From a virus: 64,000 nt of DNA. Below are positions 47,482 to 58,891 of this stretch, piece after piece; the first letter of the stretch is position 1; each line of letters begins with the position of its first letter. A model generated the notes under the pieces. The model had not been told where the DNA came from. It was given only the letters and a program-made list of their open reading frames with translations, and ran no database searches. The stretch covers positions 1 through 64,000 of the IMG/VR virus record IMGVR_UViG_3300006162_000012; one strand, 5' to 3'. The translations under genes were made by a program, and so were the position numbers.

Positions 47482-47649
47482 ATGAAAAAAGAAGAACTCC
47501 CCTCTTTTTACAAATTGACGCCGGCGCAGGTCCGCGAGATCCGCCGACGGGAAGACGTAAGCGTGGCGCATTTCGCAGAGAAATTCAGCGTCTCGAAGAT
47601 GACCGTGAGCAAAGTCCGCCGTGGACTTACATACCGGAGCGTGCAATGA
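47482..47649 (+). CDS. Small helix-turn-helix protein (55 aa)
   Basis: ATG 47482 starts one base after the previous stop, with GGACTGAG upstream. The 55-residue protein is essentially one HTH: KLTPAQVREIRRREDVSVAH then FAEKFSVSKMTVSKVRRGLT. This matches short resolvase/Cro-like DNA-binding modules. It is probably a transcriptional regulator of the early region. The stop overlaps the ParB-like start. Confidence 0.65.
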   Translation: MKKEELPSFYKLTPAQVREIRRREDVSVAHFAEKFSVSKMTVSKVRRGLTYRSVQ

Positions 47650-48344
47650 CTAAGCCGAAAGATTACGAACTCCACGAATTCTGCGCCGCCTTCCCCGAGC
47701 TCGAAGCGAAAGATTTGCAAGACCTCGCCGACGACATCTACGCCAACGGCCTTCGCCATCCGATCATCCTCTTTGAAGACAAGATCCTTGACGGGCGGAA
47801 CCGTTACCTCGCGTGCAAGATCCATGGCGTCGAACCGGAATTCGAAGAATTCCAAGGACCGCGGACAAAAGCGCTTGACTTCGTTGTCTCCGAGAACCTC
47901 GCCCGCCGGCACTTAAGCACGGCCGAAAAAGCTTTCGCCGCCGCCCGTCTATCCGACCTCCGCGGAACGAAAGCCCAAGATGAAGCCGAGCACCTTAAGG
48001 TCTCGTCGTCGTCCGCCCGCCGCGCGGAGAAGATCATCGATAAAGCCATTCCCGCTATCCAAGAAGCAGCGGAGAAAGGCGACATCACGCTCTTCGACGC
48101 GGCGAAGCTCGCGGACAAGCCGGCGGAAGTCCAAGAAAAAGTCGCCCGTTCTAAAGACAAAGACGCGGCTGCGAAAAAGGCGGTGAGCCCGCCGGTCCAG
48201 CCGCTCAAGACGATTATGACAAAGGACGACAAGAAGGTCTTGGCGGAGATCGTGGACATCTGGAACATGGACCTTGCCGATATGTGGAAGCAGCTCGGCG
48301 ACGTGGCGAAGGGGAAATTCATTTCTGATGTCCTGGAGTATTGA
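47646..48344 (+). CDS. ParB/Spo0J-like nuclease-domain protein (232 aa)
   Basis: Residues 10-90 match the ParB N-terminal domain: LQDLADDIYANGLRHPIILF then KILDGRNRYLACKIHGVEPE, the ParB/sulfiredoxin fold with its DGRNRxxA nucleotide-binding box. An HTH-like region follows (LSTAEKAFAAARLSDLRGTK, VSSSSARRAEKIIDKAIPAI). Phages use such proteins as regulators or adapters rather than for chromosome partition. The C-terminal part (about 190-232) is a separate helical segment. It is coupled to the small HTH gene by an ATGA overlap. Confidence 0.75.
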   Translation: MTKPKDYELHEFCAAFPELEAKDLQDLADDIYANGLRHPIILFEDKILDGRNRYLACKIHGVEPEFEEFQGPRTKALDFVVSENLARRHLSTAEKAFAAARLSDLRGTKAQDEAEHLKVSSSSARRAEKIIDKAIPAIQEAAEKGDITLFDAAKLADKPAEVQEKVARSKDKDAAAKKAVSPPVQPLKTIMTKDDKKVLAEIVDIWNMDLADMWKQLGDVAKGKFISDVLEY

Positions 48345-50174: not shown

Positions 50175-50313
50175 GCGTAGCGACGGGTGGTCTGACGAGC
50201 ACCGCAAGAATATGTCTTCAGCGATGAAGGCCGCGTGGGAGCGGAAAAGAAAAATCAAGGAACAAAAAAAGAGCGCGGTGAAGCCCGTGAAGACCCATCG
50301 GGGAGCGAAATAA
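50161..50313 (+). CDS. NUMOD3-like small DNA-binding protein (50 aa)
   Basis: The 50-residue basic protein contains SDEHRKNMSSAMKAAWERKR, the NUMOD3-type helix-turn motif usually found beside homing-endonuclease catalytic domains. Here it is free-standing, followed by a Lys-rich tail. It may be a small DNA-binding accessory protein. It overlaps the DUF6378 gene by 14 bp and its TAA overlaps the next ATG. Confidence 0.55.
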   Translation: MLKDKRSDGWSDEHRKNMSSAMKAAWERKRKIKEQKKSAVKPVKTHRGAK

Positions 50314-51563
50314 TGTGCGGCTTCGCGATGTCCCTCCTCCCCGACGATCCGTGGCTTATGAAGGCTGCCGCGGCGATCTCCCACCGCGGGACTCTCCCGC
50401 CCCGTGTCACTCGGCATTCAGCGTTCGCGAGGTTGCCGATCGTCGGGAGCTTCGAGCAACCGATCACGATCTTCGACGAGGAATTCTGTTTCGTCGGCGA
50501 ATTGCTTAATTTTAGAGATTTCACGGATGAGCTCGGCGACACGATGCTCGCGTTTAGGACCCTCCGCGACTTCGGCGTCCGCGGGTTCCAAGGGTTCGAC
50601 GGATTTTGGTCAGTCGCCTACCACCGGCACGGCCGCATCACGCTGATCGCCGACTACCTCGCCCAGAAGCCGATCTTCTACACGCATTCTCGGGCGTGCA
50701 GCGAGCTATGGCCTTTGGTCGAAGAAGGAGAAGATTTCGACGAGGTTTTTCTTTCTGACGTGATGAAATGGGGCTATTGCCCGGACCAAAGCCGCACGCC
50801 GTTCACGAGGATTAAGAAAGTCCTTCCGGGCCATTCCGTGTCGTTGCCCGAACGCCAGATGGAGCATGCGGATCCAGTTTTCATCGCCGACGACTATTCT
50901 CCCGAAGCCCTCAAATACGCTTTTGAAGAAGCTGTCCGCCTCCGCGTCCAATCGTCAGACGTCCCCGTCGCCTGCCTCCTTTCCGGCGGATATGACTCGT
51001 CTTTGGTCTATCGGACTGCGCGGGAATACGGCGACATCGTCCCTTACCACATCGGCCTCACCGGAGAGCTTGGCGTCGCCCAATCTATCGCAGGTCCGTC
51101 TCTCCGCGTCGTGCCGACGGCCGCCCCGCCGACGGATCTTGAGATCCTCCTCTGGATGCAAGAACCTGTCGACCTTGGATCGGTGGAAGCCCAAATCCTC
51201 ATGGCGGAAGCCGTGAAAGAAAACGTCTGCCTCGGCGGCGACGGCGCCGATGAATTCTTCGGCGGCTACGGACGGGCTGCACGATATGACAGCCGTTATT
51301 CGGACGTGTTCCACGAGCTTGTCTGTTACCACCTTCCGCGGCTCGATCGGGTGATGATGCGGAAGGCCGTCGAATACCGGTCTCCCTTCCTTAGCCGAAG
51401 GATGGCCCAGCTGGCTTTAGCCGCCCCTTACGCGCCTAACAAAAAGATCCTTAGGGATATATGGCCCAACGACGTCGAGAAGAAGCCCTTGCGCCCGGCT
51501 GGCTTCGACCGCGAGGCCCATAGCATCCGGCTGGTCAAGCTTTTCCGGGAGATCTGGCTATGA
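50313..51563 (+). CDS. AsnB-like class II glutamine amidotransferase/ATP-PPase (416 aa)
   Basis: Cys2 follows the start Met, as required for an N-terminal nucleophile amidotransferase (MCGFAM), with HRG (about 24-26) and VGELLN (about 61-66) as Gln-site motifs. The C-terminal half is an asparagine-synthetase-type PP-loop domain: CLLSGGYDSSLVYR, LGGDGADEFFGGYGRA and DRVMMRKAVEYRSPFLSRRM. It should activate a carboxylate with ATP and transfer ammonia from glutamine. At 416 aa it is shorter than AsnB (about 550). Lying in an operon with DNA methyltransferase homologues, it may amidate a DNA base or nucleotide modification rather than make asparagine; this is hypothesis. Confidence 0.8.
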   Translation: MCGFAMSLLPDDPWLMKAAAAISHRGTLPPRVTRHSAFARLPIVGSFEQPITIFDEEFCFVGELLNFRDFTDELGDTMLAFRTLRDFGVRGFQGFDGFWSVAYHRHGRITLIADYLAQKPIFYTHSRACSELWPLVEEGEDFDEVFLSDVMKWGYCPDQSRTPFTRIKKVLPGHSVSLPERQMEHADPVFIADDYSPEALKYAFEEAVRLRVQSSDVPVACLLSGGYDSSLVYRTAREYGDIVPYHIGLTGELGVAQSIAGPSLRVVPTAAPPTDLEILLWMQEPVDLGSVEAQILMAEAVKENVCLGGDGADEFFGGYGRAARYDSRYSDVFHELVCYHLPRLDRVMMRKAVEYRSPFLSRRMAQLALAAPYAPNKKILRDIWPNDVEKKPLRPAGFDREAHSIRLVKLFREIWL

Positions 51564-51796
51564 GCGTCATTAATCGGATGAATATCTCGATTTCGTCTAT
51601 AGATAAACCTTCGACGATCGACGGTGAAGTCGTCCATTTCTCGTTCCACGGCGATCATTTCGCCATATGGTTTGTCCCATATAGGCCACGGCGCCAAGTG
51701 AAGATCGTCGGCACGGGGGAAACTTATAAAGGGCGCCATTTAATCAGCGTTTCATTTGGAGACGCCGCTTGGCATTTAATTGAGGTGCAGGAATGA
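51560..51796 (+). CDS. Hypothetical protein (78 aa)
   Basis: A 78-residue beta-rich protein (DGEVVHFSFHGDHFAIWFVP, RRQVKIVGTGETYKGRHLIS) coupled by ATGA to both the amidotransferase and the methyltransferase-like gene. No family is recognised. Its position suggests a partner of one of these enzymes. Confidence 0.5.
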   Translation: MSVINRMNISISSIDKPSTIDGEVVHFSFHGDHFAIWFVPYRPRRQVKIVGTGETYKGRHLISVSFGDAAWHLIEVQE

Positions 51797-53208
51797 AAAA
51801 GAAAGTTGAAGTCCCGCAGCTCACCGCCGTCGGTGTGACGTCTGGCATAGGGTCGATGCTCCATGGGGCGGCGAAGGCTGGGTTCAAGACGCTCGGGAAC
51901 ATCGAATGGCGGAAGTATTACCACGCCCGCGACGAACGCGGCCGCAACACGTTCACGGAGAATTTTCCCGGCGCCGTCTTCAAGCACAAATGGTCTGACC
52001 TTACGCCGGAAGAGGTCGAACGGCTGATGAACCCGACGCTTGCCCTCATGCATTGCGAATGCGGGAATTTTTCGAAATTGAACGGCGCGAACGCCGACCG
52101 CCTGGAGGACTTGACTGATCCTGGCGACATTCCGATCACGTTCGAGGTCGTGGCGAAGCTCCAACCGAGGTTCTTCGCTGCGGACAATCTTGCTCCTTCT
52201 TTCCAAGCGTTCTCGATGCGGGATTACGTCGACGCCCTGCCGGATTACGATATTTTTCCTGAAGCGGTTTCGAATTGGGGTTACGGGAATGTGCAGAAAA
52301 AACGCGATCGGATGTTCGTTCTTGGCGCGAAGAAAGAAGAGGGCTTCACCTTCCGGCCTGACGAGCACGCCCATTCTGGCACTGTTCGGTCAGTCCTCGA
52401 AGGTTTAGGCGAGCCAGGGAAATCTAATTACCCTAACCATGATCCCCACGCTCTTGACGTCATTTCTCCCCGCTCGACGAACATATTGCGCTTAGGAAAA
52501 TCGGAGAATTGGCGCGTCGTCCGCGATTGGTTCGCCGCCCGGCCTCCAGGGACGATAATGGAATATCTGAATAAAGATGGAGAGCTGAAAAAGCGCATCG
52601 GTTTCCTCAAAGCTAAATGGGACGGCCCGTGCAACGTCCTCACCGGCGGCAACGCGACGATCCACCCGATCCGCAATGTCCCCTTCACGATCCGCGAACG
52701 CGCCCGCATCCAAGGTTTCGACGACGATTTCGTTTTCTACGGGACTAAGCTCGACGAGAAAGGGCAGTGGGTCCACGAAAACAATATGCACATGGTGAAG
52801 ATGACGGGAAAGGCGATGCCGATCCAGTTCAATGAATACTTCGCCCGGCAGGTCGCTGCCCATGTCCTTCGGCAGCCTTTCAAAGCGGCAGGGACGCGGC
52901 TCCTCAAAAACGACCCGTTCATCGATGAAGCCAAGACTTGGTTTTGCGACAACGTGGGTTATTCGAAGCAGGAAGCGGCCTGCGGAGCGTGCTGGTTGGC
53001 TGAGGAGTGCGAAGTCAGGCGGAGGCGGTTCGGTTATACCCCTCCTCCTGAAGCGGCCGTCCGCAAGGTTCCTAAGGCCCCTGCCGTGAAAGCCGAAAAG
53101 GTTCCGAACGCGCCAAAAGCGCCAAAAGCGCCCCGCGCCGTAAAGGCGCCTAAAGAAACGATCGCGCCTGCCGGCGCGACGGCTACTACGATGTTGAAAT
53201 TTGACTGA
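51793..53208 (+). CDS. Divergent C5-cytosine methyltransferase homologue (471 aa)
   Basis: C5-MTase motifs appear in order: I (TSGIGSMLHGAAKAGF, about 16-31), IV (MHCECGNFS, 87-94 region), VI (FFAADNLAPS), VIII (VQKKRDRMFVLG) and IX-X (FTIRERARIQGFDDDF then TGKAMPIQFNEYFARQV). The normally invariant PC of motif IV is EC (Cys90 would be the nucleophile), and ENV of motif VI is DNL, so specificity or chemistry may differ. After the MTase fold there is a four-Cys cluster (WFCDNVGY, CGACWLAEEC) and a low-complexity Lys-Ala-Pro tail. It may modify or bind already modified cytosine. Confidence 0.78.
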   Translation: MKKKVEVPQLTAVGVTSGIGSMLHGAAKAGFKTLGNIEWRKYYHARDERGRNTFTENFPGAVFKHKWSDLTPEEVERLMNPTLALMHCECGNFSKLNGANADRLEDLTDPGDIPITFEVVAKLQPRFFAADNLAPSFQAFSMRDYVDALPDYDIFPEAVSNWGYGNVQKKRDRMFVLGAKKEEGFTFRPDEHAHSGTVRSVLEGLGEPGKSNYPNHDPHALDVISPRSTNILRLGKSENWRVVRDWFAARPPGTIMEYLNKDGELKKRIGFLKAKWDGPCNVLTGGNATIHPIRNVPFTIRERARIQGFDDDFVFYGTKLDEKGQWVHENNMHMVKMTGKAMPIQFNEYFARQVAAHVLRQPFKAAGTRLLKNDPFIDEAKTWFCDNVGYSKQEAACGACWLAEECEVRRRRFGYTPPPEAAVRKVPKAPAVKAEKVPNAPKAPKAPRAVKAPKETIAPAGATATTMLKFD

Positions 53209-53222
53209 AGGGAGAAGAAAAT

Positions 53223-54119
53223 ATGTCTATGGGCGATAAAGTTGAGGTTAGGGACGGCGACATACCGGGCGATTATCATTGCGCATGCGCATGGTGCTCG
53301 AAAGCCATCGGAGAGCTCCGTCCTTTGGACGGCTCATACTACAGTCGACTTGAGCGGCGGGCTTATTATTCCCCGACGGAAAAAGGCAAAGGCGGGCACA
53401 TCGCGAAAACGCCGTTGCATATCGCCCGTTGGGCGATCCAAGCTTATTCGAAGAAAGGAGACTGGGTCCTGGATCCGACGATCGGCGCCGGGACGACGGC
53501 CGTCGAGTCGTTGACTCAAGGGCGAAGCGTCGCGGGGATGGAGCTTGAATTCGGGCAAATCCTTTCCGATAATATCAAGAAAGCTCTCTCCACGATCCCG
53601 AAAGGATCGGCAGAAGCGAAAGTCGCCCAAGGCGACGCGAGGAACATCGGCGATTTCTTGAAAAAGGTCGACCAGAAGTTCAAGCTGGTCGTCAACAATC
53701 CCCCCTATAGCGGCGACAAATCGGTCGGCACGCTCATCAAGGGAGGACCGCCGCAAATCCTCTACGCTTACGACAAAAAGCTCCCGAACCTGGCTTTCCT
53801 AAATGAAGGTCCCGTCTATATCGAAACGATGACGGACATCTACAAAGCTTGCGTTTCAGCCCTCCAGCCAGGCGGGCATTTCGTCGTCGGCGTTAAAGAC
53901 ATGATGCGGAAACGCGAACCCTTCCTCCTTCACCAAATCTATTGCAGGATCCTCGAAGACCTAGGGATGGAATATGTCGGCGCCGCTTTCTTGAAGCATT
54001 ATCCGGGCACATTGTTCCTGAACACATATTTCACGGCCCGCGGCGTCCACCCGCCTTATTACCAGACGATCGTCGTGTTCAAAAAACCTGGCGGCCGGGC
54101 GGCGAAAAAACTTTCCTGA
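53223..54119 (+). CDS. Amino-methyltransferase (N6A/N4C type, 298 aa)
   Basis: The SAM-binding motif DPTIGAGTT (about 84-92) follows a motif X-like KTPLHIARWAIQAY, and the catalytic NPPY is at 159-162 (VVNNPPYSG). The order X-I-IV indicates an exocyclic amino-group DNA methyltransferase, probably N6-adenine. The N-terminus has three close Cys (CACAWC) that may bind zinc. There is no obvious large target-recognition domain, so recognition may be short. GGGAG precedes the ATG. The transcript probably ends at the hairpin at 54132. Confidence 0.78.
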   Translation: MSMGDKVEVRDGDIPGDYHCACAWCSKAIGELRPLDGSYYSRLERRAYYSPTEKGKGGHIAKTPLHIARWAIQAYSKKGDWVLDPTIGAGTTAVESLTQGRSVAGMELEFGQILSDNIKKALSTIPKGSAEAKVAQGDARNIGDFLKKVDQKFKLVVNNPPYSGDKSVGTLIKGGPPQILYAYDKKLPNLAFLNEGPVYIETMTDIYKACVSALQPGGHFVVGVKDMMRKREPFLLHQIYCRILEDLGMEYVGAAFLKHYPGTLFLNTYFTARGVHPPYYQTIVVFKKPGGRAAKKLS

Positions 54120-54214: not shown

Positions 54215-54715
54215 ATGGTTGAGCTTAAAAAATTGCCTTTAGCGGAAAGCGCCACGGCGCGGACGATCGAAATAATTAAGACTCTTCCGTCGGGAAGCGT
54301 CTTCACAAGCACGACCATCAAAGACATCGCCGCGGACGGCGGATGGTCCCTCGACGTAAGCCATATATCTGCAGCGCTTTACCGATGGCGCGGCAAGAAA
54401 ATGTTCCGATGCATCGGCCATTCGTCCAACAACCGCAAACGCCTAGTTTACGTCATGGAGGATCCTTCCGTCGTCTTTAAGCTTAACCGCCGGCCGGAGC
54501 ATGTAGTTGTCCGTCCAAGGCTCGGCGGTTACCATAAGCATTCAGACGCTCCGAATGTCCTCATCGGAGAATTCGGCTCCTCGAGGATAAACGAGCTTCC
54601 TAAGCAAGAAGTTACCGTGGTTCCGCCTGTCATTCTTGAAGACACACCGTCGTCGATCCTTGACGATTTCCTCCAGCTCCTCGTGCGGTTAGAAAAATTA
54701 TTGAAGAAGGATTGA
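54215..54715 (+). CDS. Putative winged-helix protein (166 aa)
   Basis: Residues 13-80 have a winged-helix pattern (TARTIEIIKTLPSGSVFTST, IKDIAADGGWSLDVSHISAA, LYRWRGKKMFRCIG, RLVYVMED), suggesting DNA binding. The rest is a polar linker and a C-terminal helix (SILDDFLQLLVRLEKLLKKD) that could dimerise. A regulatory role for the modification unit is possible. GGAGG precedes the ATG. Confidence 0.5.
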   Translation: MVELKKLPLAESATARTIEIIKTLPSGSVFTSTTIKDIAADGGWSLDVSHISAALYRWRGKKMFRCIGHSSNNRKRLVYVMEDPSVVFKLNRRPEHVVVRPRLGGYHKHSDAPNVLIGEFGSSRINELPKQEVTVVPPVILEDTPSSILDDFLQLLVRLEKLLKKD

Positions 54716-54717
54716 CG

Positions 54718-55503
54718 ATGTTCAAGAACCAAATCACAGCTTTCCGCGGAGCTCTCCTCGAAGCCCCAATCGTTAAGACAGAAAAATGGCAGGGCGTCGA
54801 AGCGAACCTTTCGACGAAGGAGATGACAAACCAGTTCTTTATCGTCGATCTTAAGGGTGAGGAACGACTCAATGCCTATGCTGACGACATCAAGCCGAAC
54901 CTTCCGTTCGCGGATAAAGCTTTTGAAGAGCGCGTCGGCGGGGAGCCTTTGAACCCTGGGACCGCGTGGCTTAGTTGGCCGTGGTCCCGATCGGCGGAAA
55001 AATTCAAGCCCTCAGTGTTCGACCATTCCTACGCAGAGCGTTATTGGCCTAAATTCGCGAACCGAAGCGAAGGAGGGAAATTGCCGGTTTCCTATCCTGA
55101 ACGCATCCGACGTTACCCGGCGAAAGATCCCCGGCCTCGGTGGGGAGCCCGCGGGCCATACGGCGACCTTGAGGATCTTGTGAACCTCCTTGACGACCAG
55201 CCCTTCACCCGGCAAGCTTACTTGCCGATCTTCTACCCAGAAGATCTCGGCGGCTTGCCGCGGAAGCCTTGCACACTCGGCTATCATTTCCTCCAACGGG
55301 ATGGGAAGTTCAATGTTTTCTACCTAATGAGGAGTTGCGATTTCACAAGGCATTTCCGCGACGACTGCTACCTCACTATCCGTCTTCTTCTCTGGGTGCT
55401 CGACCAGCTCCGGATAAGGGACTCGTTTTGGCTCGGCGTCGTTCCTGGCGATTTTTCCATGTGGATCGGAAGCCTCCACGTTTTTGAAAAGGACCCCCTA
55501 TGA
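54718..55503 (+). CDS. Putative dCMP hydroxymethylase (thymidylate-synthase fold, 261 aa)
   Basis: ATG 54718 is chosen for its GAAGAAGGA; a TTG lies at 54712. The C-terminal half matches the thymidylate synthase/hydroxymethylase family: catalytic Cys185 (RKPCTLGYHFLQRDGKFNVF), phosphate-binding RSCD (205-208) and PGDFSMWIGSLHVFEKD. The residue that aligns with the uracil-selecting Asn of thymidylate synthase is Asp216 (HFRDDCY), as in T4 dCMP hydroxymethylase (FRNDY), and GSLHVF equals GSLHVY of T4. It should convert dCMP to 5-hydroxymethyl-dCMP with methylenetetrahydrofolate. The N-terminal 100 residues are divergent. It overlaps the MazG-like gene by four bases. Confidence 0.8.
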   Translation: MFKNQITAFRGALLEAPIVKTEKWQGVEANLSTKEMTNQFFIVDLKGEERLNAYADDIKPNLPFADKAFEERVGGEPLNPGTAWLSWPWSRSAEKFKPSVFDHSYAERYWPKFANRSEGGKLPVSYPERIRRYPAKDPRPRWGARGPYGDLEDLVNLLDDQPFTRQAYLPIFYPEDLGGLPRKPCTLGYHFLQRDGKFNVFYLMRSCDFTRHFRDDCYLTIRLLLWVLDQLRIRDSFWLGVVPGDFSMWIGSLHVFEKDPL

Positions 55504-55871
55504 GCTATTTTCTTGATGTCCGAGATTTCCATCGAAAATTCGGCCTTCCTTCCGACGGGCCGGCGCGCCGGCTCGACGACGTCGAGCGGATTTTCCGCGA
55601 AAAATTCATGGAAGAAGAACTCAAAGAATACAAAGAAGCCGACACGAAAGCCGACCAGCTTGACGCCCTCGTGGACCTTTGCTATGTCGCGATCGGGACT
55701 GCCGTGATGCAAGGCTTCGACTTCGATGAAGCTTGGCGGCGGGTCCACGAAGCGAACATGAAGAAAGTCCGTGTATCGTCCGCTAGCCAAAGCAAGAGAG
55801 GGTCGACCCTCGACGTCGTGAAGCCGCCGGGCTGGACGCCTCCAGATCATTCCGACCTTGTAGGAGAATGA
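55500..55871 (+). CDS. MazG-like NTP pyrophosphohydrolase, dCTPase candidate (123 aa)
   Basis: An all-alpha NTP-PPase with the metal-binding pattern FMEEELKEYKEADTKADQLD, then DLCYVAIGTAV, i.e. EExxE followed by DxxD. The N-terminal residues FHRKFGLP and the C-terminal tail are typical of phage MazG-like proteins. In the setting of a dCMP hydroxymethylase and a dCMP deaminase, hydrolysis of dCTP to dCMP (the role of T4 gp56) is the natural guess. The family cannot be assigned a nucleotide from sequence alone. Confidence 0.75.
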   Translation: MSYFLDVRDFHRKFGLPSDGPARRLDDVERIFREKFMEEELKEYKEADTKADQLDALVDLCYVAIGTAVMQGFDFDEAWRRVHEANMKKVRVSSASQSKRGSTLDVVKPPGWTPPDHSDLVGE

Positions 55872-55872
55872 C

Positions 55873-56301
55873 ATGACTGATTGGATTGTCCGATGGTTCG
55901 AGCTGGCTGAGCACATTTCGACCTGGAGCAAAGATCCTAGGACGAAAGTCGGCGCAGTCCTCGTCGGCGCTGACCGACGGGAGATCGCCGTTGGGTTCAA
56001 TGGGTTCCCCCGCGGTGTCGAAGACACTGAAGAACGCTTGAACAATAGGTCGGTGAAGAACGCCCTCACGCAACATGCAGAGAGGAACGTCCTCGACAAC
56101 GCCCGCTTCGACGCGAAAGGCGGAACGCTTGTCGTGACTTTCGCTCCTTGCCATGAATGCGCGAAGTCGATCATCGCCAAAGGCGTCGCCCGCGTGATCT
56201 GCCCTCCTAGCAGCCAGGATCCGAAGTGGCTGGAGAGCTTCGCCCTATCTTCAGAACTTTTCGATGAGGCCGGCGTCGAATTGCTAATTTTTTCAAAATA
56301 A
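55873..56301 (+). CDS. dCMP deaminase (142 aa)
   Basis: A zinc-dependent deoxycytidylate deaminase. Zinc ligands and the proton shuttle are His68-Ala-Glu70 (QHAERNVLDNA) and Pro92-Cys93-x-x-Cys96 (APCHECAKSI). The N-terminus (WSKDPRTKVGAVLV) and GFNGFPRGVED are diagnostic of dCMP deaminases. It makes dUMP from dCMP, feeding thymidylate and lowering normal dCMP. It starts one base after the MazG-like stop, and its TAA runs into the next promoter box. Confidence 0.92.
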   Translation: MTDWIVRWFELAEHISTWSKDPRTKVGAVLVGADRREIAVGFNGFPRGVEDTEERLNNRSVKNALTQHAERNVLDNARFDAKGGTLVVTFAPCHECAKSIIAKGVARVICPPSSQDPKWLESFALSSELFDEAGVELLIFSK

Positions 56302-56393: not shown

Positions 56394-57056
56394 ATGCATC
56401 CGAAGCCAGACTTTTCAAAGATGAACGGACAGCAGCTTTTGGACACGTACAATATGTACGCTCCGAAGTCTCGGTCGGCGAAGTTCCAGGATAAACAGGA
56501 AGGCGTCGCTCGTTGCGAGGCCGAATGGGTGAAATGGGACAAGGCCAACCCGAACCACCCAGACCGCGCCAAGAGCTTGGCGCTTACGACGACTACGACC
56601 CCGGCCGCGTCGGCCCCGGTCGGACCCAAAGTGGAGGACAAAAACATGGCGAAGACTGCGACTGCCGCGGCTAAGGCCGCCCCGAAGACGGAAACCAAGA
56701 AGACGGCTGCGAAGGCTCCTTCCAAGCCCAAGACTGCACCGGCCTCGAACAAGGCCAAGGCGAAGGCGGAAAAGCAGAAGGACCGCCCCGAGCGTCGGAA
56801 GCCGGAGTCGCTCCAGGGCCGCAATCGCCGGAGCTACGACATCATCCAGCGCAAGGCGAAGGTCAATCCCCGCCGAGAGGGTTCCCTGTCGCACGACTTC
56901 TTCGAGGAAATGGTCGACGGCCGCACCGTCGGCGAATACCTCGACCAGTTCGACGACTCGGAACGCCGCAACGCTTCGCAGTGGCTCTCGAATTCGATCG
57001 CGGAAGGCCACATCACGATCAAATACGGCGAGCCGCCGGCTGAGTCGGCGAAGTGA
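56394..57056 (+). CDS. Lys/Ala-rich protein with C-terminal domain (220 aa)
   Basis: Residues 1-62 form a small helical domain (KMNGQQLLDTYNMYAPKSRS, EAEWVKWDKANPNHP). Residues about 65-138 are a low-complexity Thr/Ala/Lys/Pro linker resembling histone H1 tails. Residues about 142-212 form a conserved-looking domain (RSYDIIQRKAKVNPRREGSL, FFEEMVDGRTVGEYLDQF, ASQWLSNSIAEGHITIKY), perhaps winged-helix. It is likely a DNA-binding protein. An internal start at 56646 has a strong ribosome binding site. The stop overlaps the polymerase GTG. Confidence 0.6.
   Translation: MHPKPDFSKMNGQQLLDTYNMYAPKSRSAKFQDKQEGVARCEAEWVKWDKANPNHPDRAKSLALTTTTTPAASAPVGPKVEDKNMAKTATAAAKAAPKTETKKTAAKAPSKPKTAPASNKAKAKAEKQKDRPERRKPESLQGRNRRSYDIIQRKAKVNPRREGSLSHDFFEEMVDGRTVGEYLDQFDDSERRNASQWLSNSIAEGHITIKYGEPPAESAK
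56646..57056 (+). CDS. Shorter product from an internal start (136 aa)
   Basis: ATG 56646 (MAKTATAAAKAAPK...) is preceded by GTGGAGGA with eight bases between GGAGG and ATG. This is a better Shine-Dalgarno than most gene starts here. The product would lack the N-terminal domain and keep the basic linker and C-terminal domain. Inference only. Confidence 0.45.
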   Translation: MAKTATAAAKAAPKTETKKTAAKAPSKPKTAPASNKAKAKAEKQKDRPERRKPESLQGRNRRSYDIIQRKAKVNPRREGSLSHDFFEEMVDGRTVGEYLDQFDDSERRNASQWLSNSIAEGHITIKYGEPPAESAK

Positions 57057-58891
57057 AAAAAAAGGCAAGGCTCCACAGCCCCGCCTTCCCCTCGCTTCAA
57101 GGCCAAGGCTATATCGGGATAGACCTTGAGACGAAGGATCCTGACCTCAAGAAATTGGGGCCAGGATATTTCCGCGAGGGCTCTTATGTCGCCGGTGTCG
57201 CTGTAGGGACGGAGGCGGGGTTTAGGGAGTATTACCCTATCGGCCACGAAGAAGGCCCAAATTTGCCTAAAGGGCAGGTTGCTGAATGGCTCCGGCGGGA
57301 GCTTAGCACAGACGTCCCGAAGGTCGGGGCGAATATCATTTACGACCTCGGGTTCCTCCGTTTCATGGGTGTTGAGCCAAAAGGTCCTTTTTACGACATT
57401 CAAGTCGCTGAACCGTTGATCGACGAAAACCGCCTTTCTTATAGCCTTGAGGCCTTGTCGCAAAAATACCTTGGTGCGGGAAAATTCGACGAAGAGCTTA
57501 ACGCTTACCTTATCGCGAAATACGGGCGGAAAAATCCGAAATCGAACATCTGGCGCGCGCCTTCGCATATCGTCAAACCTTACGCGGTCGGCGACGTCGA
57601 GCAAACTCTTTACGTGTTCCGAAAGCAAATTCCGATCCTTAAAGCGGAAGCCTTGTGGGATTTGTTCGAGATGGAATGCAGCCTCATCCCGATGCTCCTC
57701 GACATGCGGGTCCGCGGCGTCCATATCGACGTCCCCGCCGCGAAGAAGATGCATGCTGAACTTACGGAAAGGCAAGAAAAGCTCCAGAAGAAAATCGGCG
57801 ATGCGTCTGTCTGGGCGGCTGCAGAAATCGCGCTGTTATTCGACAGGCACGGCATGGAATATCCCCGCACTCCGAAGACTAAAGCTCCGTCGATCACGGC
57901 GGACTTTCTTAAGGCGTGCCCGCACCCATTGGCGAAAAGCATCCTTGAGGTGCGGCAGCTGGACAAACTCCGCGGGACTTTCCTAGAAGGCGTGATTTTC
58001 GACATGCTTTACGAAGGATCGATCCACACGTCTTTCAACCAACTCCGGAGCGACGACACTGGCGCGGTCTCTGGCCGGTTTAGCTCATCCCTTCCGAACC
58101 TCCAATTCATTCCGTCCAGGACAGAAGACGGCAAGCGTATCCGCTCGCTTTTTGTCCCCGATAAGGGGTGCGATTGGGGGAAATTAGATTTTAGCCAAGT
58201 CGAATTTCGGCTGGCTGTGAATGACGCCATAGATTGTAAGCTAGGAAAAGCCCACGCAATCGCAGAAGCTTACCAGAGGGATCCAAACCTCGACTATCAT
58301 CAAGTCGTCGCCGATATGTGCGGCGTCACTCGGACGCAAGCTAAGACGATCAATTTCGGCATCCTTTACGGAGAAGGCGCCGCGAAGCTTTCTTCGCAGC
58401 TTGGCTTAGATGAACAAGGCGGTCGAAAGCTGTTGAGGAAATATCATCTGCGAGTCCCGTTCGCTAAGCCTCTTTCCGAGCGATTTTCTAGCATCGCCAA
58501 AAAGCAGGGTTACGTCGTCACCCTTTACGGCCGGCGCCGCCGGTTTGAAAAATTTTCTGTGGGAGGGAAAGATGGTTTCCAGATTGTCCCAGAAGGGACG
58601 ATCGGCGCAAGGCGGGCTTTCGTCCACAAAGCCCTCAACGCGCGGATCCAGGGAAGCGCGGCAGACGTGATGAAATTGTCGATGCTTGCAGTCTATAAAT
58701 CTGGCGTGACGAAAGTCCTCGGCGTTCCGCACCTCACCGTGCATGACGAGCTCGACTATTCGATCCCCCGGACGAAGGAAGGCCGCGAGGCTTTCGCGGA
58801 AGCGAAACATCTTATGGAGACGTGCGTCGAATTGAATTTGCCTTTGAAGGTCGACAGCGGCGTCGGCCCCAATTGGGGGAAAGTAGCATGA
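57053..58891 (+). CDS. DNA polymerase, family A (612 aa)
   Basis: Starts at GTG 57053 (GTGA overlap). The N-terminal 3'-5' proofreading domain has GIDLETKD (Asp24, Glu26), NIIYD (Asp98) and YAVGD (Asp181). The polymerase domain has motif A KLDFSQVEFR (Asp379), motif B RTQAKTINFGILYG (Arg427, Lys431, Tyr439) and motif C VHDELD (565-566). The residue four after the motif B Lys is Phe, as in E. coli Pol I Phe762. It is the replicative polymerase of the phage. No 5' nuclease domain is present. Confidence 0.95.
   Translation: MKKKARLHSPAFPSLQGQGYIGIDLETKDPDLKKLGPGYFREGSYVAGVAVGTEAGFREYYPIGHEEGPNLPKGQVAEWLRRELSTDVPKVGANIIYDLGFLRFMGVEPKGPFYDIQVAEPLIDENRLSYSLEALSQKYLGAGKFDEELNAYLIAKYGRKNPKSNIWRAPSHIVKPYAVGDVEQTLYVFRKQIPILKAEALWDLFEMECSLIPMLLDMRVRGVHIDVPAAKKMHAELTERQEKLQKKIGDASVWAAAEIALLFDRHGMEYPRTPKTKAPSITADFLKACPHPLAKSILEVRQLDKLRGTFLEGVIFDMLYEGSIHTSFNQLRSDDTGAVSGRFSSSLPNLQFIPSRTEDGKRIRSLFVPDKGCDWGKLDFSQVEFRLAVNDAIDCKLGKAHAIAEAYQRDPNLDYHQVVADMCGVTRTQAKTINFGILYGEGAAKLSSQLGLDEQGGRKLLRKYHLRVPFAKPLSERFSSIAKKQGYVVTLYGRRRRFEKFSVGGKDGFQIVPEGTIGARRAFVHKALNARIQGSAADVMKLSMLAVYKSGVTKVLGVPHLTVHDELDYSIPRTKEGREAFAEAKHLMETCVELNLPLKVDSGVGPNWGKVA

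Follow-up and report, generated by a model that had tools for sequence, protein, structure and literature searches.

What does a phage protein with the fold of a DNA cytosine C5-methyltransferase do when the motifs that would hold the target base have been replaced? The question is raised by an open reading frame at 51793-53208 (+) in a window of 64,000 nucleotides, positions 1 to 64,000 of IMG/VR virus record IMGVR_UViG_3300006162_000012, which is 67,227 bases long. The window is from a tailed phage, based on matches to portal, baseplate, tail tape measure, and terminase proteins; its baseplate proteins resemble those of myovirus E217. Previously, from the sequence alone, the reading frame was described as a C5-methyltransferase homologue with EC for PC at motif IV and DNL for ENV at motif VI, perhaps acting on a base already substituted at its 5-position. 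That original prediction is partly supported here; it did not include a lysine in motif X, a partner AsnB-like ligase, or the precedent of the enzyme CmoX.

The protein, its active site, and its family

The 471-residue protein, referred to here as a Lys-type enzyme, matches PF00145 (Pfam, E 4.9e-11) and phrog_116 (E 2.8e-21). Its AF2 model, built from 37 natural sequences (pLDDT 88.8, pTM 0.86), has the DNA C5-methyltransferase fold, with Z values of 26.1 to 3g7u, 25.6 to HaeIII, 24.9 to CmoX (8YF3), and 24.3 to HhaI, in agreement with the homology first proposed. Scans of IMG/VR identified 25 and then 50 related loci, giving 46 distinct family proteins for the signature counts and 45 distinct contigs for the neighbourhood counts; L016, which is split by a frame break, was left out of the alignment. 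The 46 proteins have a median pairwise identity of 40 %, and close pairs show dN/dS of about 0.04-0.10, which is purifying selection. The database matches, the fold, the related loci, and this selection together confirm that the reading frame is real, and the altered motifs are as observed:

51898..51921, + strand: motif II, N-I-E-W-R-K-Y-Y; Arg40 (HhaI D42) invariant, 46/46
52051..52074, + strand: motif IV, H-C-E-C-G-N-F-S, residues 87-94; His87 and Gly91 invariant in the family
52183..52191, + strand: motif VI, D-N-L (ENV in ordinary enzymes), residues 131-133; Asp131 invariant, 46/46
52804..52821, + strand: motif X, T-G-K-A-M-P; Lys340 (52810-52812) invariant, 46/46
52945..53010, + strand: four-Cys cluster, C-x11-C-x2-C-x5-C, residues 385-406; in 39/46 family proteins
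53065..53157, + strand: Lys/Ala/Pro-rich tail, residues 425-455; aligns poorly within the family

Motifs IV and VI are as first described, and the catalytic cysteine itself, Cys90 (52060-52062; HhaI C81), is kept in 46/46 proteins. In the classical Pro-Cys-Gln (PCQ), the proline has become Glu, Asp, or Lys and the glutamine Gly; the family consensus is HPECGNFS at motif IV and D(D/N)L at motif VI. Whether EC and DNL are conserved in homologues had been posed as a question: in the family the Cys and the motif VI Asp are invariant, and position 89 (HhaI 80) is Glu in 37, Asp in 6, and Lys in 3 of the 46 proteins. No characterised EC/DNL homologue was found.

Motifs I and X had been regarded as well kept, which does not hold. 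In motif I, D16 is replaced by Gly in 45 of the 46 proteins and F18 by Thr in 34, and G23 is Ser. In motif X, GK(A/F/C)M takes the place of GN(S/A)V across the family, with Lys340 at the position of HhaI N304, MpeI N374, and CmoX R350. The second IMG/VR scan used the pattern GK[ACF]MP, which includes this lysine; loci of the first scan were found via peptides that do not contain it, and all those aligned still have it. D60 is not conserved, its column differing between two alignments. Within the SAM site, Glu40, which binds the ribose, is retained, as usually is Trp41, and the QxRxR arginines are strictly conserved. At HhaI-equivalent positions, H78, C81, G82, S85, D119, L121, R163, R165, K304, M306, and R42 are invariant in the 46 proteins, with G78H, Q82G, E119D, D42R, and N304K being invariant changes from HhaI. 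Numbering follows HhaI, E. coli TS, and AsnB reference sequences, and the registers of motifs IV and X agree with the PDB alignment.

As judged from these alignments, the active site of the family is constrained as well as altered, and Lys340 of motif X is the key and most informative change. Q82 and N304 are within motifs common to all C5-methyltransferases, and shortening both residues widens the pocket for bulky groups (PMC10666283); in this family both positions are naturally altered, to Gly and Lys. Decay as a cause of the active-site changes was ruled out by the family-wide invariance and the dN/dS values. An ordinary m5C methyltransferase protecting phage DNA at one sequence would account for the fold, the catalytic Cys, the QxRxR, and the target-recognition region, but is highly improbable given that every member has altered motifs IV, VI, and X and altered SAM residues, that PCQ, ENV, and Asn304 are retained in all four of the ordinary phage methyltransferases compared (PfAC20, Dfl-JY23, and two of NatCom_9287), and that the linkage to a hydroxymethylase and a ligase, described below, is conserved. 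The closest viral fold match, Bacillus phage G gp301 (L162:7752-9032), is an unusual C5-methyltransferase homologue in which PC, with the catalytic Cys, is kept, but motif VI is ENA and motif X has Gln304.

The C-terminal four-Cys cluster of the original prediction recurs across most of the family and is a probable zinc site. The Lys-Ala-Pro tail is likewise present, although it is poorly conserved and largely of low pLDDT, with residues 438-471 of the AF2 model below 50.

In 84,980 prokaryote species genomes there is one locus, on a MAG contig that matches IMG/VR contig L017 in length and range. Among 50,697 phage records there is no close relative of the enzyme and no cultured phage carrying the family; annotated phage matches are limited to five records (four phages) at <27 % identity, none with the Lys-type signature. 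No description of the family was found in the full text of open papers. The published CmoX survey required both SPPC and R350 (PMC12783734), therefore this family would have fallen outside it. Within the family, L012:6490-9266 and L013:4389-6826 each hold two tandem C5-methyltransferase-like paralogues with motif X Lys in both copies, which perhaps differ in sequence preference.

The conserved neighbourhood

The genes around the Lys-type enzyme in the window are:

50313..51563, + strand: AsnB-like amide ligase with N-terminal glutaminase domain (MCG start), PF00733
51560..51796, + strand: small open reading frame, 78 aa, overlapping both neighbours; weak DUF7352 match
53223..54119, + strand: N6/N4-methyltransferase-like protein (DPTIGAGT then NPPY; N-terminal CxCxxC); in 19/45 contigs
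54712..55503, + strand: TS-family cytosine hydroxymethylase-like enzyme, Asp at TS position 177
55500..55871, + strand: MazG/PRA-PH-like nucleotide pyrophosphohydrolase, PF01503, phrog_671
55873..56301, + strand: dCMP deaminase, phrog_174, E 3.6e-41

The suggestion that the 5-position may be occupied is supported by the cytosine-type hydroxymethylase homologue, which is 1.5 kb downstream in the window and present in nearly all relatives. This TS homologue is linked in 43/45 contigs, at a median gap of 0.3 kb from the C5-methyltransferase-like frame, and the two misses, L010 and L020, are both cut by the contig end. Asp177 and Cys146 are each found in 44/44 homologues, and His147 is replaced by Ser or Thr; Asp177 with a replaced His147 is the pattern of contigs with modified cytosine (PMC8670742). 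The best PDB match of the window homologue is MilA, a CMP hydroxymethylase. Asp177 indicates no more than a preference for cytosine, and the product could be 5-methyl-dCMP rather than hydroxymethyl-dCMP. Cultured phages commonly carry the TS homologue; in the three such loci inspected, the C5-methyltransferase-like gene is not nearby. The dCMP deaminase is present in 34/45 contigs, within the fetched flanks, and an all-alpha NTPase of the dUTPase_2 type in 24/45; the MazG/PRA-PH-like protein is a possible dCTPase.

The AsnB-like ligase is linked in 41/45 distinct contigs, at a median gap of about 0.5 kb. Its model has a fold Z of 38 to AsnB 1ct9, and Cys1 and the PP-loop are intact in all full-length copies; against annotated phages there is one weak match. 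Although these ligases keep Cys1, 30/42 have Val in place of N74, the oxyanion residue of the glutaminase, so they may receive ammonia differently or use a different amine. L066, L071, and L072 form a sub-clade with HPKC at motif IV, in which the TS homologue and NTPase are present and no AsnB-like ligase is visible in the records. Neither L071 (17.8 kb) nor L066 (50.7 kb) is a short contig, and all family records may be incomplete; in some such members the pathway may end with the first step or rely on a different enzyme.

The N6/N4-methyltransferase-like protein may have as its target either the same base or an adjacent one, given its 3′ adjacency in the contigs noted above and the fusion of its relatives to the C5-methyltransferase-like protein at L018:7992-10256 and L046:5962-8271. 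No glycosyl-, glucosyl-, or carbamoyltransferase was among the Pfam matches of the window, and 47646-48344, considered for a ParB domain of the kind seen near CmoX, had no Pfam match. At 57053-58891 there is a PolA-type DNA polymerase, for which the best-scoring NCBIfam model is that of the aminoadenine polymerase DpoZ, under the model cut-off (E 3e-88, 297 of 500 bits).

That the gene belongs to a cytosine hypermodification pathway and operon is well supported. The near-constant linkage to hydroxymethylcytosine and amide-building genes suggests that the Lys-type enzyme probably goes beyond plain methylation, converting cytosines of the phage DNA to a new base that carries extensive decoration. 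Of the activities originally considered, another substrate or the extension of a 5-substituent is the best reading, in keeping with the conserved changes and the hydroxymethylase linkage. The non-catalytic reader also considered is not supported, given the strict conservation under purifying selection of the QxRxR arginines, the catalytic Cys, and other active-site residues; a reader of 5-hydroxymethylcytosine (hmC) has no need for an invariant Cys and arginines. An hmC eraser (dehydroxymethylase) would fit the likely hmC supply and the ability of M.MpeI to release formaldehyde from hmC (PMC11347137), yet leaves the ligase and Lys340 unexplained; reader and eraser together are the least probable of the readings considered. 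Formation of a SAM-dependent methyl ether on the hmC hydroxyl oxygen, with the ligase acting elsewhere, is also improbable, if slightly less so: the retained SAM fold and Glu40, the pocket widened at 82 and 119, and the hydroxymethylase linkage all agree with it, but the invariant Cys would not be needed, and Lys340 and the ligase again have no part.

Proposed chemistry and the carboxy-SAM alternative

The reading that is favoured, tentatively and at somewhat short of an even chance, is of a hypermodification enzyme acting on hmC in DNA through a Cys-C6 adduct, by which a carboxylate-bearing group is added that the ligase then amidates. The TS-family enzyme would make hydroxymethyl-dCMP, from which hmC would be put into the phage DNA. 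The Lys-type enzyme would flip out the hmC and Cys90 would attack C6; loss of the 5-hydroxyl, assisted by Asp131 and by the acidic residue 89, would give an exocyclic-methylene intermediate. A carboxylate-bearing nucleophile, such as an amino acid, held partly by Lys340, would add to this intermediate, with the smaller Gly91 and Asp131 leaving space for the 5-substituent. The AsnB-like ligase would then use ATP to activate the carboxylate and would form the amide from another amine or from ammonia released from glutamine. Ligases of this family, which includes AsnB, beta-lactam synthetase, and CmoY, activate carboxylates, which is why the base is expected to carry a carboxylate after the C5-methyltransferase-like step. 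Exchange of the hydroxyl via the Cys-C6 adduct would be the simplest chemistry, as hmC is the likely substrate and there is no CmoA. The substrate, donor, and product of the Lys-type enzyme are predicted, as are hmC in DNA as that substrate, the carboxylate on the added group, the methylene intermediate, and the order of the steps.

Precedents exist for parts of this scheme. M.SssI couples cysteamine to hmC in DNA, and exchange of the hmC hydroxyl with thiols is an in vitro activity of ordinary C5-methyltransferases (PMC7176277). M.MpeI forms covalent complexes with hmC DNA (PMC11347137), and the reaction of T4 dCMP hydroxymethylase, in which Asp179 is positioned at the base, passes through an exocyclic methylene (PMC6400193).

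The main competing source of a carboxylate is carboxy-SAM. CmoX, of Synechococcus phage S-B43, is a phage DNA carboxymethyltransferase (Nat Commun Dec 2025; PMC12783734) in the structure of which R350 contacts the carboxylate of carboxy-SAM, and engineered M.MpeI N374K gains the use of carboxy-SAM and so becomes a carboxymethyltransferase (PMC12783734). The Lys-type enzyme might likewise carboxymethylate cytosine C5, or the hmC oxygen, before amidation by the ligase. Its lysine is at the N374K position, an AsnB-like ligase is present as in CmoX/CmoY operons, and E. coli CmoA sufficed to feed CmoX (PMC12783734). The kept Glu40 and, usually, Trp41 hint at a nucleoside cofactor, and a host CmoA could supply the carboxy-SAM; both are points against hydroxyl exchange, and host-supplied carboxy-SAM is a real rival because these residues fit such a cofactor. 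Against this rival, plain dC is expected to be scarce if the hydroxymethylase replaces it, and the loci differ. CmoA was found in 0/50 Lys-type records, being detected in the S-B43 control, whereas SpCmoX-like control loci have CmoA in 63/80, an AsnB-like ligase in 48/80, and neither the TS homologue nor the deaminase (0/80 each), in a narrow sample with 86-97 % identity to SpCmoX. The Fisher p values between the two sets are 1.5e-31 (TS) and 3e-20 (CmoA), in which independence is overstated since the loci are related. CmoA also adjoins CmoX in each of the divergent CmoX phages PaBG, TurkishDelight, Mcat8, and S-CRM01, which have Arg at 304, SPPC, ENV, F18, and D60; in Melnitz-3, residue 304 is Leu and the fetched region shows no CmoA match. 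SPPC and ENV are lost in the Lys-type family, and the cofactor-adenine residues D60 and F18, conserved in CmoX, are not (F18 usually not). In the tree, the CmoX clade has support of 1.0 and the Lys-type family is a separate clade outside it (0.77). On balance, a carboxy-SAM-dependent Lys-type enzyme is unlikely.

Given the reciprocal presence of CmoA and the TS homologue, the two sets of loci look like alternative modules, one with a carboxy-SAM maker, an Arg-type enzyme, and a ligase, the other with a cytosine hydroxymethylase, a Lys-type enzyme, and a ligase. The fuller form of the exchange reading is that a C5-methyltransferase-fold enzyme no longer uses SAM and swaps the hmC hydroxyl for a carboxylate-bearing nucleophile that the AsnB-like ligase amidates, a second, independent route to an amide-decorated cytosine and an undescribed base; as a whole this is less likely than not. 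To our knowledge, hmC exchange has so far been seen only in vitro, as a side reaction of methyltransferases; if the exchange chemistry is true, this would be a natural enzyme for the reaction, useful for hmC labelling. The Lys-type proteins are an uncharacterised phage enzyme family and point to a DNA base not yet described, with one operon joining two known strategies, the hydroxymethyl handle and the carboxylate handle with an amide ligase.

Comparison with known systems

The Lys-type enzyme shares its fold, catalytic Cys, QxRxR, and an RERARxQG-like motif IX with the classical C5-methyltransferases (M.HhaI, M.HaeIII; PF00145), from which it differs in having ECG for PCQ, D(D/N)L for ENV, GK for GN, and the loss of D16, F18, and D60 in the family. 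It resembles the CmoX/CmoY/CmoA system in its phage C5-methyltransferase fold, a basic residue at 304, and an adjoining AsnB-like ligase. In contrast to CmoX, with which identity is about 18 % and which forms a separate clade, the residue is Lys and not Arg, with HPEC and not SPPC, and D(D/N)L and not ENV, and the loci have a cytosine-type TS homologue and a dCMP deaminase in place of CmoA. M.MpeI N374K has Lys at the same motif X position, but as a single engineered substitution in an enzyme that is normal elsewhere, whereas the Lys-type family has several more invariant changes. The T4 dCMP hydroxymethylase pathway follows the same logic of hydroxymethylase, deaminase, and nucleotide pyrophosphatase, but T4 adds glucose. 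In the MetaGPA hmC-carbamoyltransferase phages (eLife 2021; PMC8670742), an Asp177 TS, a dCMP deaminase, and a pyrophosphohydrolase likewise feed the tailoring of the base, which is by an O-carbamoyltransferase in those phages and by a C5-methyltransferase-fold protein with an AsnB-like ligase here.
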